Assembly: GCA_017991475.1 (NCBI GenBank)
Contig: JAGOQK010000009.1
Span: forward strand, 1-33,882
Direction of reading: 5' to 3'
DNA length: 33,882 nucleotides
DNA from: Minisyncoccota bacterium
GTDB taxonomy: Bacteria; Patescibacteriota; Minisyncoccia; Phycocordibacterales; PALSA-1337
Shown here: positions 13,120 to 28,488 of the stretch, in pieces
How positions within the stretch are numbered: the first letter of the stretch is position 1
Layout of the letters: every line of letters begins with the position of its first letter
Notes under the pieces: generated by a model
The model's database searches: none
The model's input: only the letters and a program-made list of their open reading frames with translations
Told to the model about the DNA's origin: nothing
Made by a program: the position numbers and the translations under genes

Positions 13120-13722
13120 TTATGATTTGGTTAAGTTATATATTTTATCTAATTTTTTACCATCATGTTTCGGATACTGCATGAAATGTTCCATTATTAA
13201 CAAATGACTTTTATCTTTCCACAGCTCTTTTTCTTCATCAGTAATTAGAGCGAGTACTTCCTTTTTCCATTTTTCAGGATAGTCTTCATATTCTTTTTTA
13301 ATCTCATAAAGAAGATCTAGGCGAGATCCATTTTCTGCTTTTGTTACACTGGTTAGCATATCTGCCCAAATTATAGATTTTTTCACCTTAATCTCAGCTA
13401 TCTTTAACGTTAATTTAAGATTTTTTAGAATACTTAAAGTCTCAATTAAATTAGTATAGGTAACAATTTCTCCAGGATAGTCATAGTCAGCTTTAATTTT
13501 ATATCTTTTGTGCAAATCAAAATACCAGTCTAAATATTTTTTTTCGGTGTCTTTATCTGGCATATTTTCTAGACAAATAAAAATATCAACATCGTGATTA
13601 TGGTCGGCATACCCTTTTGAAAATCCCCCACAAACAAATCCAAATAATAAATTTTTTTCAAAGATATCGTGAACTTTGTATTTAACTTCCTCTAAAATTT
13701 CATCAATTATCTTTTTATCCAT
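13120..13722 (-). CDS. Nucleotidyltransferase-fold protein (AT-rich cassette)
   Basis: A 200-residue protein with the signature of the polymerase-beta-like nucleotidyltransferase superfamily. GFVCGGFSKGYADHNHDVDIFICLE (about residues 28-52) gives the GG-x-SxG helix and the DxD metal pair, and Asp residues in KADYDYPGE could give the third carboxylate. The rest is Lys/Glu-rich and helical. Substrate is unknown: members modify tRNA ends, antibiotics or proteins, and others serve as antitoxin-like MNT proteins. It is the last gene of a three-gene cassette with visibly lower GC than its surroundings, 10 nt after the HemA-like gene, so it is likely co-transcribed with it. Horizontal acquisition is inferred from composition. 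Confidence 0.75.
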   Translation of the reverse strand: MDKKIIDEILEEVKYKVHDIFEKNLLFGFVCGGFSKGYADHNHDVDIFICLENMPDKDTEKKYLDWYFDLHKRYKIKADYDYPGEIVTYTNLIETLSILKNLKLTLKIAEIKVKKSIIWADMLTSVTKAENGSRLDLLYEIKKEYEDYPEKWKKEVLALITDEEKELWKDKSHLLIMEHFMQYPKHDGKKLDKIYNLTKS

Positions 13723-13732
13723 TTTCGTAATT

Positions 13733-14617
13733 CTAGTTTTTAATAACTGTATTTATACTAGTAATCTTGTCTCTCATCATCTGATTTTGTTTCTCAATTA
13801 TATTATTCATGTTTTGTGAATATAAATTAAAATATTCTTTTGAGAGGCAGTCTGCGCCAGAAATAGGCACTGATGATAGATCGCATATAGTTACACACGA
13901 CTCCTTACTACATAGATATAGAATGTTATCACTATAATTTTTATCGATATTATCGGTTGCAATTATTATATCAAATGGCTCATTTATACATTCTTCATTA
14001 AATGATTTTATTGTTGTTATTTTAACATTCTGCCCACCAACAATATTTAAAATGTGCTTTTCTGCTTTCTTTATATTTCTCGTGACCACAATAATATTTT
14101 TATATTTTAATGAATAACCTATAGTTTCAATAATACTACGAGTTAAAAAACCAGCTCCGACAATAACCAATGTCTTAGTTTTATTTGCCACAAGGTGTTC
14201 GACAATTAGCTGCCCATGATTCGGAGCACTGAAATCAAATTTTTCACGTATTTTTTTAGCCTTATCAAGTACATCCTTATATTCTAAAACAGACAGGTTC
14301 CCTGAATATTTTTTAATACTATCGATTACTTGCTCCTGAATTGCCTTTTCTCCAATTATCTTTGATTCCAACCCAATACATATCTTTAATAATCTTTCTT
14401 TTATCAGATCTATATTTGATTCAATTTTAAAATCTTTAAATAAATCATGACTATACTTATTATCCGTATCTAAGTAATACTCAATTCTATGGCAAGTTAT
14501 TAAAGACACCCCTTCATTTGAAGAAATTAGATTATTTTTTTTATATTCCAATCCTTTCTGAGCAAGATCTCTCTCATTAATATTTGAAGTTTTATAATCT
14601 AAATAATAACAAATCAT
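13733..14617 (-). CDS. Truncated glutamyl-tRNA-reductase-like (HemA-like) protein
   Basis: HemA reduces glutamyl-tRNA to glutamate-1-semialdehyde through a cysteine thioester. From the ATG at 14617 the 294-residue product follows the family: YYLDYKTSNINERDLA (N-terminal), LITCHRIEYYL with the nucleophile-position Cys42, and GLESKIIGEKAIQEQV (family GLDSxVxGExQIxxQV). KAKKIREKFDF and the NADPH-binding LVIVGAGFLTRSI with VVTRNIKKAEK follow. The conserved His before GL-S of classical HemA aligns with Arg75. The C-terminal dimerisation domain of about 100 residues is absent. An upstream in-frame start at 14692 would overlap the aminotransferase gene and adds no homologous sequence, so I reject it. 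No other haem gene is nearby. It may act on an aminoacyl-tRNA in a non-haem pathway; that is inference. Confidence 0.72.
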   Translation of the reverse strand: MICYYLDYKTSNINERDLAQKGLEYKKNNLISSNEGVSLITCHRIEYYLDTDNKYSHDLFKDFKIESNIDLIKERLLKICIGLESKIIGEKAIQEQVIDSIKKYSGNLSVLEYKDVLDKAKKIREKFDFSAPNHGQLIVEHLVANKTKTLVIVGAGFLTRSIIETIGYSLKYKNIIVVTRNIKKAEKHILNIVGGQNVKITTIKSFNEECINEPFDIIIATDNIDKNYSDNILYLCSKESCVTICDLSSVPISGADCLSKEYFNLYSQNMNNIIEKQNQMMRDKITSINTVIKN

Positions 14618-14636
14618 AATATATGTAATATTTGAT

Positions 14637-15881
14637 TTAAAGCTCTTTCTCAAGAAAAGACAAGCCCTTTTTGAGATCCTTGGTAAACTCAAGAAACGTT
14701 AATCTAAGCAAAGAATCTGATTCATCCCCAAGACATAAACTTGGCATAACTGAAACCTTATATTTCCTAAGTAGATTAAGAAAAATTGAATATGATTTTT
14801 TTGGAGTATTAGGTTTTATAAAAACGTTAATCCCTTGAAATTTATAATAATTCTTAATGAGATGTTTGTTCTTCAATAACCAGTTTGATAATACTTTAAT
14901 ATTGGTTTCAAACTTTAATTTATTCAGGCGTTGCTTTTCTACAAAGTCTTCATATAAATTTACAAGTATTTTCATTGGTATATCGTATCTCTGATTTAAA
15001 ACTTCAAGACCCTTAATATAATCGTTTTTTGACCCACTTATGTACTCAAATTGATAGATAAATTCACTTAGTAAAAAAAATACACTTAAAGGTCCGCCAT
15101 AACGCATAGAAGCATAGTCATAGTACTGACTAATAAACTTATTATCAGCTAACATATATCCAATCTTACACCCAGGTATACTATATTTTTTTGAAAGGCT
15201 CACTATTCTAATTACTAGCGGATTATTGATTGTTTTTGGGTATGGTAAAATGTCAAACCATATACCCTCATCAATAACAAGATAGATATTATTATTTTTA
15301 ATTATTCTTAATATTTTATCCCAAAAACTGCTGGAAAATAATCTTCCTTCAACTCCAATAATATTACTTAGAAATAAAATCTTAATTTTTTTTGAAACAA
15401 TAACCGATTGAATTGTGCCCAAAATACGATCTTCTGTATCTAATGAAGAAACGAAGTAAATCTTTTTAAAATAATGGTTGATTGATTTTACTATTGGTGG
15501 ATAATACGGTGTAAATGTTAATATACTTGCTTTTGGGTACATACTTTTAAGTTGCTCAAAAACAAATCCAATAGTTACTGTATTTCCGAGCGTAACTGCA
15601 AGATTTGATTTCTCATACTTTTTAGTAGGTTCTATGAGATTTACAAAGCGCTCGAGACTGTCAAAAACATTTTTATGGCCTAAAGAATGCGAGTACCCTG
15701 TCCAGTGTTTGTTAAAAGAATATTTTGTACAAAATTCAAAAAACTTTGGAAAATCAATATAGCTATCATTCCAATTACCCCTACTTAAAATAATATTATT
15801 ATCGTCATCAAATCTGCCATATAAATCATCTTTGAAGAATTTATTGAACGCTTTCCTGCTTTGTTCTATACGATCCATCAT
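14637..15881 (-). CDS. PLP-dependent aminotransferase (class I/II fold) in AT-rich cassette
   Basis: A 414-residue fold-type I PLP enzyme. The cofactor-binding Asp is in YLVIDEGIWFD (about residue 204). The Schiff-base Lys is in SLSKKYSIPGCKIGYM (about 231), with Lys where the family usually has the phosphate-binding Arg. The substrate-carboxylate Arg is in SLLRLTFLEF near the C terminus. The small domain starts with GNWNDSYIDFP. It is not the class III fold of glutamate-1-semialdehyde aminomutase. Possible starts are GTG 15884, ATG 15881 and ATG 15878; TATTGT ends just upstream at 15883, so the mRNA is essentially leaderless. It is first in the cassette, with 19 nt to the HemA-like gene. Reaction unknown; pairing with an aldehyde-forming reductase would fit amination of an amino-aldehyde. 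Confidence 0.8.
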   Translation of the reverse strand: MMDRIEQSRKAFNKFFKDDLYGRFDDDNNIILSRGNWNDSYIDFPKFFEFCTKYSFNKHWTGYSHSLGHKNVFDSLERFVNLIEPTKKYEKSNLAVTLGNTVTIGFVFEQLKSMYPKASILTFTPYYPPIVKSINHYFKKIYFVSSLDTEDRILGTIQSVIVSKKIKILFLSNIIGVEGRLFSSSFWDKILRIIKNNNIYLVIDEGIWFDILPYPKTINNPLVIRIVSLSKKYSIPGCKIGYMLADNKFISQYYDYASMRYGGPLSVFFLLSEFIYQFEYISGSKNDYIKGLEVLNQRYDIPMKILVNLYEDFVEKQRLNKLKFETNIKVLSNWLLKNKHLIKNYYKFQGINVFIKPNTPKKSYSIFLNLLRKYKVSVMPSLCLGDESDSLLRLTFLEFTKDLKKGLSFLEKEL

Positions 15882-16018
15882 CACAATACCATGCCATAAA
15901 ATACAAAAATTAGCAACTGCAGTTTCCTTTTTACAAAATACTATTATTCTTACACGTAGAAAACTCTTCTTTCGAAAGCTTGTGAACTGGGCTACTGTAC
16001 TGAGCCATGCTCAACTCG

Positions 16019-16091
16019 GCTGTCGGTCGTGAATGATATTAGAACTTCTTTCATACTCATTCCACGCCTTAATATGCCTAGTATAGCAAAT
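16019..16091. repeat. 73-bp direct repeat, copy 1 (upstream of AT-rich cassette)
   Basis: Ungapped match of 65 of 73 positions by eye to 17041-17113, same orientation, 1022 bp apart. On the minus strand it begins with TTTGCTATACTAGGC, an extended -10-like element (TGC-TATACT), and lies about 135 nt upstream of the aminotransferase start. Confidence 0.85.
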
Positions 16092-16107
16092 AATGGCTGA
16101 TTTTTTA

Positions 16108-16142
16108 TATTAAAAAGACAAACCGCAGATTTCTCTGCGGTT
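16108..16142 (-). terminator. Rho-independent terminator of the 236-residue gene
   Basis: Minus strand: AACCGCAGA, GAAA loop, TCTGCGGTT, then TGTCTTTTTAA. It lies 26 nt after the stop at 16169 and separates this gene from the cassette downstream. Confidence 0.85.
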
Positions 16143-16168
16143 GGTTGAACCAAGTAAATACCAGATGT

Positions 16169-16879
16169 TTAGGCCTTCACCATCGAAGGATTCCACATGT
16201 AAGCAATCCGTGCCTCCGGTCCGATACTAATCGAGGGCGTCGTTTCCCCTTCAAAAGCGAAGTATCCTAGGTGATCGTAGCCAGATTCGAACCCACCACT
16301 TCCTAGTTTGAGGTAACGAACCAGCAAATTGCCGTTTGGTTTCTCAAAAACCGTACCCACGAAGAATACTTTGATTCCACCTTTGAGGTCCTTCAGCCAT
16401 TCAACAGGAATCATCGCCGGATGCATCATGAAGAAATCGAGGTGATTGGCGTTCATGTTGCTAGGATCATCCCTTCGTGAACATTCTGGAGCGGCTAGTG
16501 CTGGATGAGACACTGTGTTGTTACGAGGCAGTCGAGTTAGGGTTTTACCTATCGGCTCCCATTCATTTGAGCCCCCGTGAAGGATTGGTTTGCAAACCAA
16601 ATGCCCATCTCCTAGATCAATATACAAAATTGCAGGAGGAAGGCTGAAATTGACTTGCTTAACGGAAACCTCGCACGATCCTACTCCATAAATCAACTTC
16701 AGCACATCGAAGAGAAGAAGTCTATCATGAGCAAGTTTTGCCCAGGCCTCTCGACCCATTCCGAGACTACGTCCTGCGACGATAAGCTCGTGCATTATAC
16801 CGAGATCTTTACCGAACACTGATTCTTCAGACATGTTGCACATACAACCCACCTTACTTTCTTTTATGACACGCCTCAT
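16169..16879 (-). CDS. Hypothetical protein, 236 residues
   Basis: I do not recognise the family with certainty. The segment MHELIVAGRSLGMGREAWAKLAHDRLLLFDVLKLIYG (about residues 29-65) forms two helices of a type seen at the N terminus of Patescibacteria hypothetical proteins. The rest appears to be a mixed alpha/beta domain with HLDFFMMHPAMIPVEWLKDLKGGIKVFFVGTVFE and a C-terminal GPEARIAYMWNPSMV. No signal peptide or membrane helix is seen. Cys12, Cys14 and others are scattered. The start could be ATG 16879 or Met16. TATAAC lies 18 nt before the first ATG. The gene has its own terminator, and the 73-bp repeat lies about 160 nt upstream, past two small hairpins, so it is probably an independent accessory unit. 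Confidence 0.65.
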   Translation of the reverse strand: MRRVIKESKVGCMCNMSEESVFGKDLGIMHELIVAGRSLGMGREAWAKLAHDRLLLFDVLKLIYGVGSCEVSVKQVNFSLPPAILYIDLGDGHLVCKPILHGGSNEWEPIGKTLTRLPRNNTVSHPALAAPECSRRDDPSNMNANHLDFFMMHPAMIPVEWLKDLKGGIKVFFVGTVFEKPNGNLLVRYLKLGSGGFESGYDHLGYFAFEGETTPSISIGPEARIAYMWNPSMVKA

Positions 16880-16925
16880 TTAGAGACACGCCGCTTAGTT
16901 ATATTGCTATCGACTTGGCCAAAGG

Positions 16926-17019
16926 TTTCGTCATAGCGGAGAATAACCCATAGTTGAGTCACTTTCTGCCATGACGAAATCAAATTAATTTAAAAGAACT
17001 ATGGTAGTTTATTACCATA
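16926..17019. repeat. Two inverted repeats in the leader of the 236-residue gene
   Basis: TTTCGTCAT (16926-16934) pairs with ATGACGAAA (16971-16979). TATGGTA (17000-17006) pairs with TACCATA (17013-17019). Both lie between the 73-bp repeat and the gene start; they could be operator or leader structures. Otherwise 16880-17040 holds nothing recognisable. Confidence 0.55.
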
Positions 17020-17040
17020 TTTATTTAAAAAAGTCAACTT

Positions 17041-17113
17041 GCTGTCGGTCTTGGATGATATTAGAACCTCTTTTGTTCTAATTCCAGGCCTTAATATGCC
17101 TAGTATAGCAAAT
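17041..17113. repeat. 73-bp direct repeat, copy 2 (upstream of the 236-residue gene)
   Basis: Matches 16019-16091 with 8 substitutions by eye and no gaps. In this copy ATTAGAAC (17060-17067) and GTTCTAAT (17075-17082) form an 8-bp inverted repeat that copy 1 does not preserve. The stop codon of the small gene at 17100-17279 lies inside it. Confidence 0.85.
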
Positions 17114-17279
17114 GTTGGGTGTGCATGACGACTGCTTTCGTTTGGCCGATCTTCTTGCGGAGACTTATGAGAGATTCTGCAACTGCGAGAAGTTTCTTGT
17201 AGTCCAAGGAGAAAGCCACCCATTTGTTGTCATGAGCTTTGGTGAGAAGGCTTAGATTGGGGGCTTTTACCGGTTCCAT
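17100..17279 (-). CDS. Small DUF5678-like protein, 59 residues
   Basis: A short open frame beginning MEPVKAPNLS. Its core KAHDNKWVAFSLDYKKLLAVAESLISLRKKIG resembles the KWVALS-D-KKVLA-ADTL pattern of DUF5678-like small proteins, frequent in Patescibacteria and often near toxin-antitoxin or orphan loci. The family normally ends with VVYMKVP-like residues. Here the tail VVMHTQHLLY is read from the start of the 73-bp repeat, so the original C terminus may have been altered. No Shine-Dalgarno site is evident. The call rests on this pattern and on coding character; the function is not known. Confidence 0.55.
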   Translation of the reverse strand: MEPVKAPNLSLLTKAHDNKWVAFSLDYKKLLAVAESLISLRKKIGQTKAVVMHTQHLLY

Positions 17280-17335
17280 ATCGCTATTCTACACCTTCAG
17301 ATATTTTTGTGAAGGGGTGTGGCGAAGTAGGAGCA

Positions 17336-17686
17336 CTACGGTTGGATATTTTCAAGATCGTGATCCGTGCTACGGTCATATGCGGGGGCATGGACTAGAA
17401 ACAATTCCATGTTTCCTCCATAGTCATATTCTGTCTGACGAGGAACGATGATAACATCATCCTTTTCCACGCTAAACTTATCACCCGCCACGTCGAACCA
17501 CCCAGAACCATCCAAGACTAGGTAAACCCTATCCGAAATGTCATTAAAGACCCTTCCGTGCCGATCGGTGACCTTGAAGCGCGCGGCACTTGCACGTTCA
17601 AAATCAGCCTTTTCCAAGTACGACCACCCTTGAAGGCCGGACCATGAAAACTCTTTTGTGTTGGACAGTTTGAAATGCAGTTTCAT
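17336..17686 (-). CDS. Cupin-domain protein
   Basis: A 116-residue single-domain cupin. The strands GRVFNDISDRVYLVLDGSGWFDVAGDKFSVEKDDVIIVPRQTEYDYGG give the conserved jelly-roll turns (G-x5-P-x-G type second motif). The usual metal-binding histidines of motif 1 are not obvious, so it may be a binding rather than catalytic cupin. I start at ATG 17686; the frame continues 3 codons upstream only through TTG. A TAATAA-like -10 box ends about 9 nt before the ATG. It is divergent from the structured element that begins near 17784. Ligand unknown; sugar or small-acid binding is typical of the superfamily. Confidence 0.8.
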   Translation of the reverse strand: MKLHFKLSNTKEFSWSGLQGWSYLEKADFERASAARFKVTDRHGRVFNDISDRVYLVLDGSGWFDVAGDKFSVEKDDVIIVPRQTEYDYGGNMELFLVHAPAYDRSTDHDLENIQP

Positions 17687-17783
17687 TACGTTCAATTATT
17701 ACATGAAGCTTAATTATTGGGTACTGACCTTTCTTGCCGTTCTCGGCAAATCTGTGCGTCTATCTCTCGCCTCTGCATCAGAA

Positions 17784-17858
17784 TACACTGTCCCTCAACA
17801 CAGTCCATATTACCCGCACGGGCTGTGGTCGCAGAACTGGTCGAGCTGCGAGCGGATA
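17784..17858 (+). ncRNA. Structured RNA element, copy A (5' part)
   Basis: TACACT (17784-17789, -10-like) is followed by hairpin 1: CACAGTCC (17799-17806), a 13-nt loop and GGGCTGTG (17820-17827). Hairpin 2 follows: TCGCAG (17829-17834), an 11-nt loop with GTCGA and CTGCGA (17846-17851), then GCGGATA. Copy B at 20665-20737 has the same layout. Hairpin 1 differs in sequence but still pairs (covariation), while hairpin 2 stems are identical. Function unknown; a structured leader or small RNA. Confidence 0.55.
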
Positions 17859-17880
17859 ACGACACTTCACTGAGCGCTCA

Positions 17881-18042
17881 ATGAAAGGGTCATTCCCTGC
17901 TATGAAGAAACAGAAGGAACCACTTCCTCTTGTACCTCCTCAATTCATCAACCACATGAATGAGATCGAGTATTTGCTTTCTAGCATTCTCGACAAAGCT
18001 CATGACATCGAGCAGAAATTAGGAATCAAGAGGAAGCGTTAG
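17881..18042 (+). CDS. Small ORF in structured element A, 53 residues
   Basis: The frame begins at ATG 17881, 22 nt after the conserved GCGGATA, and ends in TAG at 18042. The product starts MKGSFPAMKKQKEPLPLVPP. It continues into a likely amphipathic helix (FINHMNEIEYLLSSILDKAHDIEQ) and a basic tail KLGIKRKR. The helix shows weak similarity (EI, L, S, LG in register) to the 47-residue ORF of copy B. No Shine-Dalgarno sequence is visible, so translation is uncertain. If real, it is a small helical protein whose mRNA leader is the conserved hairpin pair; otherwise the whole element is a noncoding RNA. Confidence 0.4.
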   Translation: MKGSFPAMKKQKEPLPLVPPQFINHMNEIEYLLSSILDKAHDIEQKLGIKRKR

Positions 18043-18043
18043 G

Positions 18044-18154
18044 TTAGAGTTCGATCCCTAGTGTACGCAGCAAAAGGAATGGCTTGGAAAGTTCGGACGT
18101 CCAAATCCCCTATTTTGGGAAATGGCTTTAAATAGGGGTAAAAACTTTTGCTGC
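18044..18154 (+). ncRNA. Structured element A, 3' part: nested hairpins
   Basis: A hairpin with loop AGTTCGATCC (stem 18044-18047/18058-18061) matches one in copy B and is followed by the shared string GTGWACGCAGC. GCAGCAAAAG (18067-18076) pairs perfectly with CTTTTGCTGC (18145-18154). This stem encloses TTGGA/TCCAA (18084-18088/18100-18104) and CCCCTATTT/AAATAGGGG (18107-18115/18130-18138), a three-way-junction-like fold. Confidence 0.5.
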
Positions 18155-18417
18155 CAGACTTAGACGACGTTCGAACATTATCCCACAAAAGTAAACAATT
18201 GGTCAATGAACTCTGCCGCTACTTTCGAGAATGTAGCGGTGTAGAATTGCTCTCGTATCCGTGGGCACGACGTTTAGGTCATGCGAGAAATCTACCCTAT
18301 CCAAAGAAGGATGATAGGGACACAGATGAGACGTTCTCCGCATCTATGTAGCATGCGAGTAGTGTATGGGTTTGGGAGCTAGAGTGAAGAGGGTGAATAT
18401 TGCCGGGATGGCAAGAT
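18155..18417. other. Stretch without a supported gene
   Basis: A plus-strand frame from a TTG at 18148 to 18351 exists, but it overlaps the hairpin stem, has no family resemblance and no ribosome site. I see no RNA gene or promoter that I can defend here. Confidence 0.4.
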
Positions 18418-18627
18418 CTATGGCAACCTATCGGGAAGAAACATTGATGCCTTCTCTATCGCTTCATTTTTAGAAGGCTGTACCTGCTCATGCCAACAAA
18501 CACTTATGTCCCAACGAACAGGCCACTCTAAAATACAGTTAGTAAAAACTCTGAAAGCAAAACTCAAAACAAAAATGATAAAAAGGGCGCCGAAGAACAA
18601 TGCCCACTGAAATCTTATAGAATCCAT
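18418..18627 (-). CDS. Small single-helix membrane protein downstream of the OLD gene
   Basis: A 69-residue product with one strong membrane helix (about residues 8-29, WALFFGALFIIFVLSFAFRVF) and a polar C-terminal tail (QVQPSKNEAIEKASMFLPDRLP) that contains Cys residues. The ATG at 18627 is preceded by AAGGG 7 nt upstream; further in-frame starts exist at 18645 (ATG) and 18666 (TTG). It lies 73 nt after the OLD nuclease gene on the same strand and could be its partner or an unrelated orphan. I do not recognise it. Confidence 0.45.
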   Translation of the reverse strand: MDSIRFQWALFFGALFIIFVLSFAFRVFTNCILEWPVRWDISVCWHEQVQPSKNEAIEKASMFLPDRLP

Positions 18628-18700
18628 TTTAGCGCCCTTTGCCATTACATTATTACATTTATTCAACAGCGAGATTATACCTCATCAAATTACACACTCC

Positions 18701-20506
18701 CTATCTCTCAAATTTAATCTCATTGAAAAGGGCAGCAATATTGCTCTTTGTTGTCGCATCTAGTGTTATCAAACCTGCCTTTGCCTTTTGCAAAAACTTT
18801 CTCGCCAACAAGACCTTGTCCGGTCTAGGTTTAAGTTCTTTTATATATTGAGAGTTTGTGGAAGAATAGGCATTGTCCTGAACCTCCAAAACCCATTTCT
18901 TAAAATCGTCTGAGCTAAAAATATCGACAATAGTAGCGCCTTCTGTCTTCGAAACACTCTTGACGATTTCCGGTAACACCCTCCAAGATTCCAAGCCTTT
19001 TTCACCATCTTTTTTCCCCTGGTCATTATCATAAAGATAATAAACATTTGCACCCCAACCTTCTAAGATTGCTCCAATAAAACCCATCTTAGATGCACCG
19101 CCCCCATCCATGAAATTAGTCTTGAGGGCTTTATCTTCAATTTCTTTGAAAGCACGGAGATAGAAAACGTCCTCTTGACCCTCAACAACGACATTATCTT
19201 TCTGATCGAGATTCGTAATAGAATCATTTATTCCGAGACCTATAGCAGTAAGAACAGGTGTCAAAGTTTCCTTATCCGCCACCGGATGAGCATGAATTTT
19301 CCCAAGAACCCTTGTACCACCTCCAACTTTTTCGACTAGCCGTACATTTTCAAGATTATCTTCAGTTATTAGATACGGAGAATGCGTGGAGAACACGACC
19401 GGATTTTCATCCGTATGATTTAATAAAACCTTCAGTAAATCCTTTTGTGCCTTGGCGTGCAGATACAAACCGGGCTCGTCAATAAGTATGACATTGGGTT
19501 TACCCTCCTGAAGTCTTGCCACAATTTTGACATAAAATGACAAATACCATTGTTGGCCTTTACTCCTCTGTGATGGGAGGTACAGCTTATTATCTTCAAC
19601 AATCCAAAAATAAACCTCCGTGCCATCTTTTTTTACGTGCAATCGGATTTTATCTTGAGTCCAATATTCATTAAATTTATTTGTGAAATCCACATTCACA
19701 GAGTTTTCGTGGTTAACTTGTTCTTGGCGGTTAGCGGAAGCCATCTTTGCAACAGAAAAGTCACTTACCTTTTCAAGGTCGAGCGCCCATTCGTCCTTGG
19801 CTAATGACGCAACGGAAATGGATTCGGGAAACGCATCATCAAAGGATGAAAAAAGTATAAAATACGGCAAGTGAGAAGCTACGAACTCATCAACAAAATC
19901 TACCACGAATTTTTCTTGAGCACAAAAAGCATCTACAACATTTTCAATACTTGTTATGACATTAGTTACGTCTTCCAGACCCAAATTTTCAGATTTAAAC
20001 TTAAGGATTTCCGATTTAAAATCGCTGAGCTGTTGTTTCTCAAGTCTTGGGAAACTAACATCTATTCCGGCTTGTTTTATTATCAAGTCTATCTCCTCAA
20101 TAGATTTCTGAATCTGCCCTACCGACAGATCATATACTTGTTCAACTCCCAGTTGTTTCCGAGATTCTAAATCGATAGTATACTTGCTAGGCCCAAACAT
20201 TTTTGTAAGTGTCATGTTTACCTCACCAGCAACACTTTTATCACTATTGATTGCTGTAAAAATATCGCTAACATCGGCGCTTGTAAGAGTAAAAGTAATG
20301 GACACTTCCGGAACTCCATCTCCACCGATGGGTTTAGCCCCGTCTCTTATTGCCCGATCCTGATGAAAATCTTCTAAGGCTTCGAGAACGGATGTTTTTC
20401 CTGATTCGTTTTTACCGGCAAGAATAGTTAGTTTGTCACTAAAGTAACAATCACCGGAATCAATGATTGATTTATAATGTTTAATCCTGAATCTGAGGAG
20501 GTTCAT
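18701..20506 (-). CDS. OLD-family ATP-dependent nuclease (AAA + TOPRIM)
   Basis: A 601-residue protein with the overcoming-lysogenisation-defect architecture. The N-terminal SMC-like ATPase has Walker A ILAGKNESGKTSVLEAL (about residues 28-44), a helical insertion (about 100-260), signature-like LPSQRSKGQQWYLSF, Walker B NVILIDEPGLYLHAKAQ and a switch His in VVFSTHSPYLI. The C-terminal TOPRIM nuclease domain has VVEGQEDVFYLRAFKEIEDK (catalytic Glu) and YLYDNDQGKKDGEKG (acidic pair). Class 1 OLD proteins act in phage defence and DNA processing; Gabija GajA has the same layout but pairs with a UvrD-like GajB, not found here. I start at ATG 20506 because the conserved MNLLRFRIKHYKSI begins there. 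It sits between two copies of a structured element, which suggests a defence-type module. Antiphage activity is inference. Confidence 0.88.
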   Translation of the reverse strand: MNLLRFRIKHYKSIIDSGDCYFSDKLTILAGKNESGKTSVLEALEDFHQDRAIRDGAKPIGGDGVPEVSITFTLTSADVSDIFTAINSDKSVAGEVNMTLTKMFGPSKYTIDLESRKQLGVEQVYDLSVGQIQKSIEEIDLIIKQAGIDVSFPRLEKQQLSDFKSEILKFKSENLGLEDVTNVITSIENVVDAFCAQEKFVVDFVDEFVASHLPYFILFSSFDDAFPESISVASLAKDEWALDLEKVSDFSVAKMASANRQEQVNHENSVNVDFTNKFNEYWTQDKIRLHVKKDGTEVYFWIVEDNKLYLPSQRSKGQQWYLSFYVKIVARLQEGKPNVILIDEPGLYLHAKAQKDLLKVLLNHTDENPVVFSTHSPYLITEDNLENVRLVEKVGGGTRVLGKIHAHPVADKETLTPVLTAIGLGINDSITNLDQKDNVVVEGQEDVFYLRAFKEIEDKALKTNFMDGGGASKMGFIGAILEGWGANVYYLYDNDQGKKDGEKGLESWRVLPEIVKSVSKTEGATIVDIFSSDDFKKWVLEVQDNAYSSTNSQYIKELKPRPDKVLLARKFLQKAKAGLITLDATTKSNIAALFNEIKFER

Positions 20507-20664
20507 TGAAGTTTTCAGAAGTTCTGCAAATAATGGACACACTGTCGTTACGCGATTCCTTAATACCTCCGATTCTACACCTCACTTTTCCAAAAGTACA
20601 TAGGGGTGAAAATATTGCCGGAAACCGCACATTTCGCCGTCTGTGCTTTGTGTGCCTGACTCAA

Positions 20665-20737
20665 TACACTATCCCTTACCAGCTCATATCAGCCGCATGA
20701 GCCTGGGTCGCAGAGGTAGTCGATCTGCGAGCGGATA
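20665..20737 (+). ncRNA. Structured RNA element, copy B (5' part)
   Basis: TACACT (20665-20670) is followed by hairpin 1: CCAG-CTCAT (20679-20687), a 9-nt loop and ATGAG-C-CTGG (20697-20706), with a bulged C. Hairpin 2 has TCGCAG (20708-20713), an 11-nt loop with GTCGA and CTGCGA (20725-20730), then GCGGATA. Spacing matches copy A nearly base for base. Hairpin 1 pairs are kept despite sequence change. Confidence 0.55.
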
Positions 20738-20750
20738 TACAGATCAACAC

Positions 20751-20894
20751 ATGATAGAAGTCATCAAATCGGTCTATGATCACCACAAGATCAAGAAAGG
20801 TATCGGGGAAATCTACAGAAGGCTCGATAGTCTGTGCGAATACGTAGAAAACCTCCTCGATGGACTCGGTGAGCACGAAGACTTGCGCGTATAG
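20751..20894 (+). CDS. Small ORF in structured element B, 47 residues
   Basis: The frame begins at ATG 20751, 13 nt after the conserved GCGGATA, and ends at TAG 20894. The product MIEVIKSVYDHHKIKKGIGE is followed by IYRRLDSLCEYVENLLDGLG and an acidic tail EHEDLRV. It is predicted almost wholly helical, and its second half shares a weak pattern with the ORF of copy A. No Shine-Dalgarno site. Position inside a duplicated element, between conserved 5' and 3' structured parts, is the main reason to list it. Confidence 0.42.
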   Translation: MIEVIKSVYDHHKIKKGIGEIYRRLDSLCEYVENLLDGLGEHEDLRV

Positions 20895-20895
20895 T

Positions 20896-20956
20896 ACTCA
20901 GCTTCGATTCTGAGTGAACGCAGCGGCTTGCAAGGTTCGTTCGAACTTTGTCTAAG
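20896..20956 (+). ncRNA. Structured element B, 3' part
   Basis: Hairpin ACTCAG (20896-20901), loop CTTCGATT, CTGAGT (20910-20915), then GTGAACGCAGC and GGCTTGCAAGGTTCG, both shared with copy A. AAGGTTCG/CGAACTTT form a further hairpin ending next to the tRNA-Gln gene on the other strand. Confidence 0.5.
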
Positions 20957-20959
20957 TTG

Positions 20960-21030
20960 CTGGGGGACTTGGAATCGAACCAAGATTCACGGCTTCAAAG
21001 GCCGCTGTCCTACCGTTAGACGATCCCCCA
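20960..21030 (-). tRNA. tRNA-Gln (anticodon TTG)
   Basis: A 71-nt cloverleaf: acceptor TGGGGGA/TCCCCCA with U1-A72 and discriminator G73 as in other glutamine tRNAs. D arm GTCTAACGGTAGGAC, anticodon stem GCGGC/GCCGT with loop CTTTGAA (anticodon TTG), T arm TTGG-TTCGATT-CCAA. CCA is not encoded. Confidence 0.95.
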
Positions 21031-21051
21031 ATGATGCTAAGACATTACCAC

Positions 21052-27341: not shown

Positions 27342-27460
27342 TCAGCAGCCCCGGAAGTGCATGTGTGTTTTGCGTGTGTAGCAAAGTGAACAGAATATAT
27401 AGCATATTTAGAAACTGTGCGTACACACGCAAAACACACATGCACTTCCGGGGCTGCTGA
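27342..27460. repeat. Perfect 39-bp inverted repeat with 41-nt loop
   Basis: 27342-27380 is the exact reverse complement of 27422-27460. Arms begin TCAGCAGCCCCGGAAG and contain alternating purine-pyrimidine TGCATGTGTG tracts; the loop (27381-27421) is AT-rich. It lies in the divergent region between serS and dprA, its right arm ending 11 nt before the dprA ATG. No transposase, no T run. Confidence 0.95.
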
Positions 27461-27471
27461 TCACCTAAAAC

Positions 27472-28488
27472 ATGGAAATACACACAATATCTGAAGAATC
27501 ATACCCTCACCTGTTGAAACAAATAAATAAGCTACCAAAACAGATGAGCATCGTGGGTCGCATGCCATCTGACGAACATACGTTCCTATGTATTATCGGA
27601 TCACGTACCCAAAGCACCTACGGTCAACGAACATGTGAACGCTTAATTAGTGGATTAGCCGGATATCCTATAGTAATAGTATCTGGACTCGCAGTCGGTA
27701 TGGATTCTATAGCTCATGAAGCTGCACTCAAAGTCAATCTCAAGACAATCGCTTTTCCTGGATCTGGACTCAATGAAGATGTCATTTATCCGTACTCACG
27801 AAGAAATCTTGCGAAACAGATAGTAACCGCAGGAGGAGCACTGGTATCGAGCTTCCCAGATTCAATGCTATCTCAAAATTGGATGTTCCCTGTCCGCAAT
27901 CGACTCATGGCAGGAATATCGCACGCCACACTCGTCATCGAGGCACGACGTGGTTCTGGCACACTCATTACCGCCAAGTACGCGGAAGAATTCAATCGTG
28001 ACGTACTCGCGGTGCCAGGACCGATAGATTCGGAGCTGTCATATGGACCCCACATGCTCATCAGGCGTGGCGCTACACCGATAACATCGTCACAAGATAT
28101 TCTAGAAGCGCTCGGATTTACTGAAACTACTCGCTACGACAATGATGACGAACGTGCACTTAAGCTCTACCAAACCCTACCCAAGGAGAAGAAACGGCGT
28201 ATGCGCAAAATCATATCCAGTAATGACGGGTGTGACACGCTCGAACTATTCACAATATCACCACTTATTCCAAAGCCTCAAAAACCAATCACCATAGATC
28301 TAGACCAGCTCGCTCTGTCGCCTCGCGAACGCTCAATCTGCACTCATATACTGAATGAGAGCCTTTCAGCAACTGACCTCATCGAGAAGACTTCCCTGCC
28401 CGTGTCAACTTTAAGCATTACCATGACTGAGCTCGAGCTCAAGGGACTTATCAGGAATGAAGGTGGGAGGTATAGATTGATGGCATAA
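27472..28488 (+). CDS. dprA: DNA-processing protein DprA
   Basis: Cytoplasmic ssDNA-binding protein that loads RecA on incoming DNA during natural transformation. The Rossmann-type domain is clear: FLCIIGSRTQSTYG, IVIVSGLAVGMDSIAHEAALKVNLKTIAFPGSGLN, YPYSRRNLAKQIV, SEFP-like SSFPDSMLSQNWMFPVRNRLMAGISHATLVIEARRGSGTLITAKYAEEFNRDVLAVPGPI. A C-terminal winged helix (about residues 275-338) ends VSTLSITMTELELKGLIRNEGGRYRL. The N-terminal SAM-like domain is reduced to about 30 residues. Its 5' leader must include or abut the 39-bp inverted repeat, so transcription probably starts inside the loop or the leader folds into a long hairpin. topA follows 40 nt downstream. Confidence 0.95.
   Translation: MEIHTISEESYPHLLKQINKLPKQMSIVGRMPSDEHTFLCIIGSRTQSTYGQRTCERLISGLAGYPIVIVSGLAVGMDSIAHEAALKVNLKTIAFPGSGLNEDVIYPYSRRNLAKQIVTAGGALVSSFPDSMLSQNWMFPVRNRLMAGISHATLVIEARRGSGTLITAKYAEEFNRDVLAVPGPIDSELSYGPHMLIRRGATPITSSQDILEALGFTETTRYDNDDERALKLYQTLPKEKKRRMRKIISSNDGCDTLELFTISPLIPKPQKPITIDLDQLALSPRERSICTHILNESLSATDLIEKTSLPVSTLSITMTELELKGLIRNEGGRYRLMA

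Follow-up and report, generated by a model that had tools for sequence, protein, structure and literature searches.

What is the nature of two similar elements that lie in the same orientation on either side of a gene for an OLD-like ATPase in a bacterium of the phylum Minisyncoccota? The stretch of DNA analysed, hereafter the window, comprises 33,882 nucleotides (contig JAGOQK010000009.1 of assembly GCA_017991475.1, positions 1 to 33,882). A preliminary description, made from these letters alone, had taken the pair for a duplicated structured RNA with an embedded small open reading frame (ORF). The comparison with other loci and genomes reported here leads to another reading, which we consider probable: each element would be the right end, on the tRNA side, of a cassette without an integrase, and site-specific integration would have stacked these cassettes at the 3' end of tRNA-Gln. 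The features that carry it are visible in the DNA itself, namely the cassette ends, their inverted repeats, a repeat of the tRNA end, the replacement of cargo, the occurrence of the left end in three relatives and one comparison with an empty site.

Probable cassettes at the 3' end of tRNA-Gln

The existence of two similar elements, as first described, is borne out. Copies 1 and 2 form a direct repeat of 58 nt without gaps (17801-17858 and 20680-20737, 78% identical), which belongs to a conserved 5' block of 76-78 nt, located on the forward strand at 17782-17859 and 20663-20738, respectively. They also share a 3' block of 22 nt, TTCGATNCNNAGTGNACGCAGC, in which 18 of the 22 bases match (18050-18071 and 20903-20924, forward strand; shuffle P=0.001). 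The likeness continues 5' of the first block (23 of 48 bases identical, P=0.0016), and the interval between both blocks, which holds the small ORF, is not alike in DNA (P=0.15). Judged by eye, the 3' block of copy 2 looks like an inverted T-arm/acceptor end of tRNA-Gln. The genome has a third copy on a different contig (G000:C14:95197-95561), which shares 95% identity with copy 2; the two were counted as one lineage, which leaves two independent sequences in total. The shared TACACT box was considered as a -10 promoter box and rejected, having no consistent -35 box and giving no signal in a promoter scan.

The right ends formed by copies 2 and 3 each stop precisely where a tRNA-Gln gene has its 3' end. 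The one in the window, the putative insertion target, was located by ARAGORN and Rfam at 20959-21030 on the reverse strand and has the anticodon TTG, that of its counterpart on contig C14 being CTG. Two blocks are common to the window and to the C14 locus (L007): a left one, 18148-18373 in the window and 15678-15903 in L007 (95% identical, blastn), and a right one, 20589-21040 and 17198-17644 (92%), which runs through the tRNA gene. The DNA between them is unrelated, the cargo of the window cassette, E1 (about 18148-20956), differing from that of the L007 cassette, E3 (15678-17560). The left block, which is the left end of E1 on the forward strand, begins at the same base in both loci, with TTGCTGCCRGACTTAGACGACG, and beside wholly different outer flanks; over 17 nt from there it is a repeat of the 3' end of tRNA-Gln, TTGCTGSGGGACTTGGA.

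This repeat, which takes the form TTGCTGnnGGA at the cassette bounds, is represented at the far end of E1 by a displaced copy of the tRNA-Gln 3' end, TTGCTGCCAGA (18148-18158, forward strand). Seven matches with up to three mismatches are seen against a chance mean of 1.27, a number that none of 100 shuffles reached. Inside the repeats lie inverted 18-mers, GTTCGAACnnnGTCTAAG, which in the window are exact: GTTCGAACGTCGTCTAAG at 18159-18176 (reverse strand, no mismatches) and GTTCGAACTTTGTCTAAG at 20939-20956 (forward strand), the right end of E1. Those of L007 start at 15689 (reverse strand, one mismatch) and 17543 (forward strand). Copies 2 and 3 thereby appear to be the right ends of small tRNA-Gln cassettes with shared ends and unrelated cargo.

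Copy 1 can be placed in the same way. A second left end was recognized at 17039-17067 (forward strand; 5 mismatches in 29 positions, with no shuffle giving 6 or fewer), and copy 1 would therefore close off, on the right, an older cassette, E2, spanning 17039-18147. Further out, 16017-16099 (forward strand) holds the decayed left end of another cassette, E4, with 85% likeness to the E2 left end along 89 bp. The newest cassette adjoins the tRNA gene, as it should if integration occurred again and again at a single site. What had been seen as a duplication flanking the OLD gene is thus explained by two cassettes stacked at tRNA-Gln.

The cargo of E1 is the OLD-like ATPase (18701-20524, reverse strand), with AAA_15 and AAA_21 matches. 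The hallmark of OLD family nucleases is an OLD ATPase with a C-terminal TOPRIM domain; here the ATPase match is clear (PF13175, 1.5e-17) and TOPRIM is only weakly matched, below the cut-off (PF20469, 0.018), while both AriA (2e-21) and Old (1.5e-19) match in PADLOC. E2 carries a cupin-like protein of 119 aa (17336-17695, reverse strand; PF07883 at 0.0013, below the family cut-off), and E3 a Doc toxin (TIGR01550, 50.7 bits for a cut-off of 38.65) together with a protein of 224 aa.

Left ends were also found outside this genome. Among 53 genomes of the family, the first 29 nt recur in two of the same genus (G021 and G033) and in one of another genus (G042), lying 1.0-1.2 kb downstream of tRNA-Gln in G021 and G042. 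G021 has two left ends in tandem, the second at position 2980 of locus L097, and the inner one matches the tRNA-Gln of G021 over 17 nt. The empty-site comparison comes from G033, where 441 bp beside the left end are 90% identical to a flank that in G004 directly abuts tRNA-Gln; the homology stops inside the tRNA 3' end, which would place the insertion exactly there.

Several other observations concern the stack and its surroundings. A recurring motif, GGGGTGAAnnTTTGCCGG, is found in the window at 20604-20621 (forward strand) and at 18390, and in L097 at 3150 and 4093. The copies in L097 have 0-1 mismatches; those in the window, with 4 mismatches or else an indel, do not by themselves exceed chance. 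The motif followed by its matching half (hairpin TTTGCCG..CGGCAAG) stands after cassette left ends and before copies 2 and 3, being strong only in L097. At 2980-3029 of L097 there is a near-perfect palindrome, GACTTGkACGATGTTCGAACATCGTCCAAGTC, made of two left-end arms head to head. Adjoining the tRNA-Gln site of G033 (L099, G033:C15, 1987-4831) lies what we take to be a diversity-generating retroelement, presumably consisting of a reverse transcriptase split in two frames, an Avd-like protein of 127 aa and a possible variable protein. To the left of the stack in the window, 13120-15884 is AT-rich (28% GC vs 46%) and probably foreign, with genes for an aminotransferase, a glutamyl-tRNA-reductase-like protein and a nucleotidyltransferase. 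Finally, an inverted repeat of about 120 bp, 84% identical to its reverse complement, occupies 27342-27460, just upstream of the gene at 27472.

The module at the cassette end: RNA structure, peptides and distribution

The module, defined as the 77-nt block, the small ORF and the 22-nt block, had been described as an RNA under structural selection, a claim that stands in part. Hairpin 1 varies in its arms with pairing retained, its loop being better conserved than the arms, and random changes at the same columns equalled its stability in only 0.5-1.7% of trials (P 0.005-0.017). On the other side, the folding energies of the 5' blocks are ordinary (z -0.9 to -1.3), and a compensatory change on both sides is found for one pair only, as matched in 159 of 500 shuffles. 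The identical stem reported for hairpin 2 is indeed the same in both copies, but, being invariant, it carries no information on structure, and the shared downstream hairpin is good in copy 2 but weak in copy 1. Hairpin 1 appears to be conserved despite sequence change, and the overall support for an RNA structure is modest.

The two small ORFs, of 53 and 47 codons, are confirmed on the forward strand at 17881-18042 and 20751-20894. Their codon scores (0.196 and 0.324) fall with those of genes (0.376+/-0.178) and not with wrong frames (-0.38+/-0.32), although so does the score of the reverse strand of copy 2. Between the ORFs of copies 2 and 3 there are two differences, both synonymous, and no amino-acid change. 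Host-like codon use of this kind suggests that the ORFs are coding. AlphaFold predicts each peptide as a single helix, placed in the C-terminal half in copy 1 (pLDDT 83) and amphipathic in copy 2 (pLDDT 85). A test of kinship between the two peptides came out negative (P=0.44 with gaps, 0.48 without), and neither peptide has a significant match in Pfam, PADLOC, PHROGs or NCBIfam. In all three cassettes the small ORF is read toward the tRNA gene and divergently from the cargo gene. The module may plausibly be described as a structured leader with a small helical protein at the cassette end; its likeliest role, a guess from position only, would be upkeep of the element, for example regulation or control of excision.

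The module was searched by DNA, by pattern and by covariance model in about 700 genomes of the class, including 34 of the genus; these sets overlap, and the collection scans may omit records very close to this genome. Outside its own genome it was found neither by pattern in the 53 family genomes, nor by blastn in 297 genomes of the order, nor in pattern scans of GTDB contigs and IMG/VR, nor by distant blastn of phages and plasmids. The covariance model built from the copies, run on 384 class and 34 genus genomes, gave no credible match beyond its own genome: the three outside matches are all weak and were judged to be chance, one being intergenic with no tRNA (G381) and the others falling within uvrB (G624) and a glycosyltransferase gene (G012). 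Likewise, a DNA match in G007 falls in a histidine-kinase-like gene. Among 4227 Rfam families, including tmRNA, none other than two tRNAs reached the gathering threshold in the window, a permissive-threshold search gave nothing credible beyond these tRNAs, and ARAGORN found no tmRNA there. With copies in its own genome only, and a single compensatory pair that does not exceed shuffles, the proposal of a new, widespread RNA family is not supported.

Mode of insertion and rival explanations

As a working mechanism, a tyrosine recombinase acting in trans, supplied from elsewhere by a co-resident element, a phage or a plasmid, would act on the palindromic att site of a cassette, in which arms GTTCGAACnnnGTCTAAG enclose about 11 bp, and recombine it with the tRNA-Gln T-arm/acceptor end. 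The T loop and the T/acceptor junction are among the usual crossover sub-sites in tRNA genes (PMC4383910). The tRNA gene would be restored and its old 3' end shifted to the far side of the cassette, and the next cassette would enter again beside the tRNA, building up the stack. The circular form of a cassette would carry the junction GTTCGAACTTTGTCTAAG-TTGCTGCCRGA-CTTAGACGACGTTCGAAC.

Several findings weigh against this account. The tRNA-end repeat of E1 matches in only 8 of 11, or 13 of 17, bases and a clean terminal repeat is lacking at the right end of E2. The genome itself, 94.8% complete, has no match to the tyrosine recombinase family PF00589, which is matched in 27 of the 34 genomes of the genus, and its one serine recombinase (contig C10) belongs to a prophage-like insertion. 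Lastly, the cassettes of G021 and G042, which have other cargo, are without a module like copies 1-3, and the module is therefore not required for integration. The prophage-like insertion (L086, G000:C10, 1-3032) also encodes a DNA methylase and a terminase-small-like protein and is located at the end of a gene resembling that of copper nitrite reductase. In G026, in which this 29-nt left end is not present, a large serine recombinase of 551 aa lies beside a tyrosine recombinase of 378 aa at tRNA-Gln (L080, G026:C96, 2999-5874), the C-terminal codons of the former overlapping the antisense of the tRNA gene; this pair looks like an autonomous element, and the tRNA-Gln site would then be used by autonomous elements in the genus. 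According to the 2014 paper on Islander (PMC4383910), no recombinases other than those of the tyrosine type had by then been known to use tRNA genes as targets.

The shared blocks could also be DNA sites rather than RNA: inverted repeats of the cassette end to which a recombinase, an excisionase or a repressor binds, a role that the small protein might fill. In favour, the 3' block adjoins the terminal repeat and is a mirror of the tRNA-Gln T-arm/acceptor end, and the arms of hairpin 2 are perfect and unchanged, as those of a binding site would be; hairpin 1, however, shows the reverse of what an operator would, so that this explanation, while possible, is held only tentatively. The cassettes might alternatively be transposons, casposon-like or using another transposase, that end in inverted repeats of 18 nt and have duplicated 11 bp of their target, as those terminal repeats and the short flanking repeat at the tRNA end could suggest. 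Yet the target side resembles the cassette arm (CTTGGAC..TCGAAC), the repeat reaches 17-18 nt in G021, the repeats are imperfect and the units are stacked at one site, all of which is typical of att sites and makes a transposon unlikely.

The link to defence proposed for an RNA-plus-peptide unit fares unevenly. Its description as a unit is fair, given the retained hairpin 1 and the coding-like ORFs, but the link to OLD is circumstantial, because the module is a cassette end whose other copies lie beside a cupin-like gene or in a Doc-toxin cassette. A free-standing structured RNA, with its peptide, acting with OLD in defence would fit the position of the module around that gene and the conservation of hairpin 1; with those other neighbours, and no copies near OLD, or anywhere else, in the other genomes searched, it seems very unlikely. 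That copies 1 and 2 are decayed copies of one coding gene, as a short ORF in the same place in both might suggest, is hardly credible: the ORFs are intact, coding-like and dissimilar, and conservation sits in the non-coding ends.

Relation to known elements and meaning

If they are integrase-less cassettes at tRNA-Gln, the closest comparisons are with cis-mobilizable elements, additive islands and tRNA-gene islands. Cis-mobilizable elements (CIMEs) keep attL and attR, have lost their integration and transfer genes and stack with other elements (PMC5704250). The cassettes likewise have att-like flanks, apparently the attL and attR of one recombination system to judge from sequence and not from recombination, and are stacked in tandem beside the 3' end of the target gene; among the ORFs of E1-E3 and their Pfam matches there are no integrase or transfer genes. 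They differ in being very small (1-2.8 kb) and in that the same ends recur with new cargo. No parent integrative conjugative or mobilizable element turned up, none having been specifically sought.

The additive flexible genomic island of Methylophilaceae, in which the final 20 nt of tRNA-Lys are repeated as markers (PMC10872708), has in common with the cassettes a variable gene content and a tRNA 3' end that recurs as direct repeats, whereas the cassettes use tRNA-Gln, belong to another phylum and are each bounded by defined inverted repeats, with end modules that they share. Tycheposons are also cargo elements anchored at a tRNA gene (PMC10872708), but the cassettes are far smaller and have no tyrosine recombinase inside. 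As in Islander tRNA-gene islands, a 3' tRNA fragment is displaced to the far end, in the correct orientation, with a crossover in the T-stem region (PMC4383910); such islands carry their own integrase gene, however, and the cassettes do not.

Integron cassettes, whose system is recognized by the IntI integrase and the attC site (RYYYAAC...GTTRRRY), are also integrase-less units of one or two genes, stacked at one site and with palindromic recombination sites at their ends. The present cassettes differ in their target, the tRNA 3' end, and apparently in the lack of IntI, no PF00589 match having been found in the genome. It is conceivable, though rather improbable, that Patescibacteria have a system resembling integrons, with a recombinase that acts in trans and stacks cassettes lacking an integrase, including those with defence and toxin genes, at tRNA-Gln, some of them with an end-encoded structured RNA and peptide controlling insertion, excision or cargo expression. 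No description of such cassettes at tRNA-Gln in Patescibacteria was found in the open-access literature.

The case illustrates that the end of a mobile element can pass for a new RNA family when just two copies are seen. Moreover, what was supposed to be an RNA oddity becomes a defined locus of gene capture in bacteria that are reduced and for the most part uncultured. The short 29-nt ends allow cassettes to be found in other Patescibacteria and their cargo, defence and toxin genes included, to be catalogued, and the locus offers a way to test what enzyme mobilizes genes where the cell itself has no integrase.

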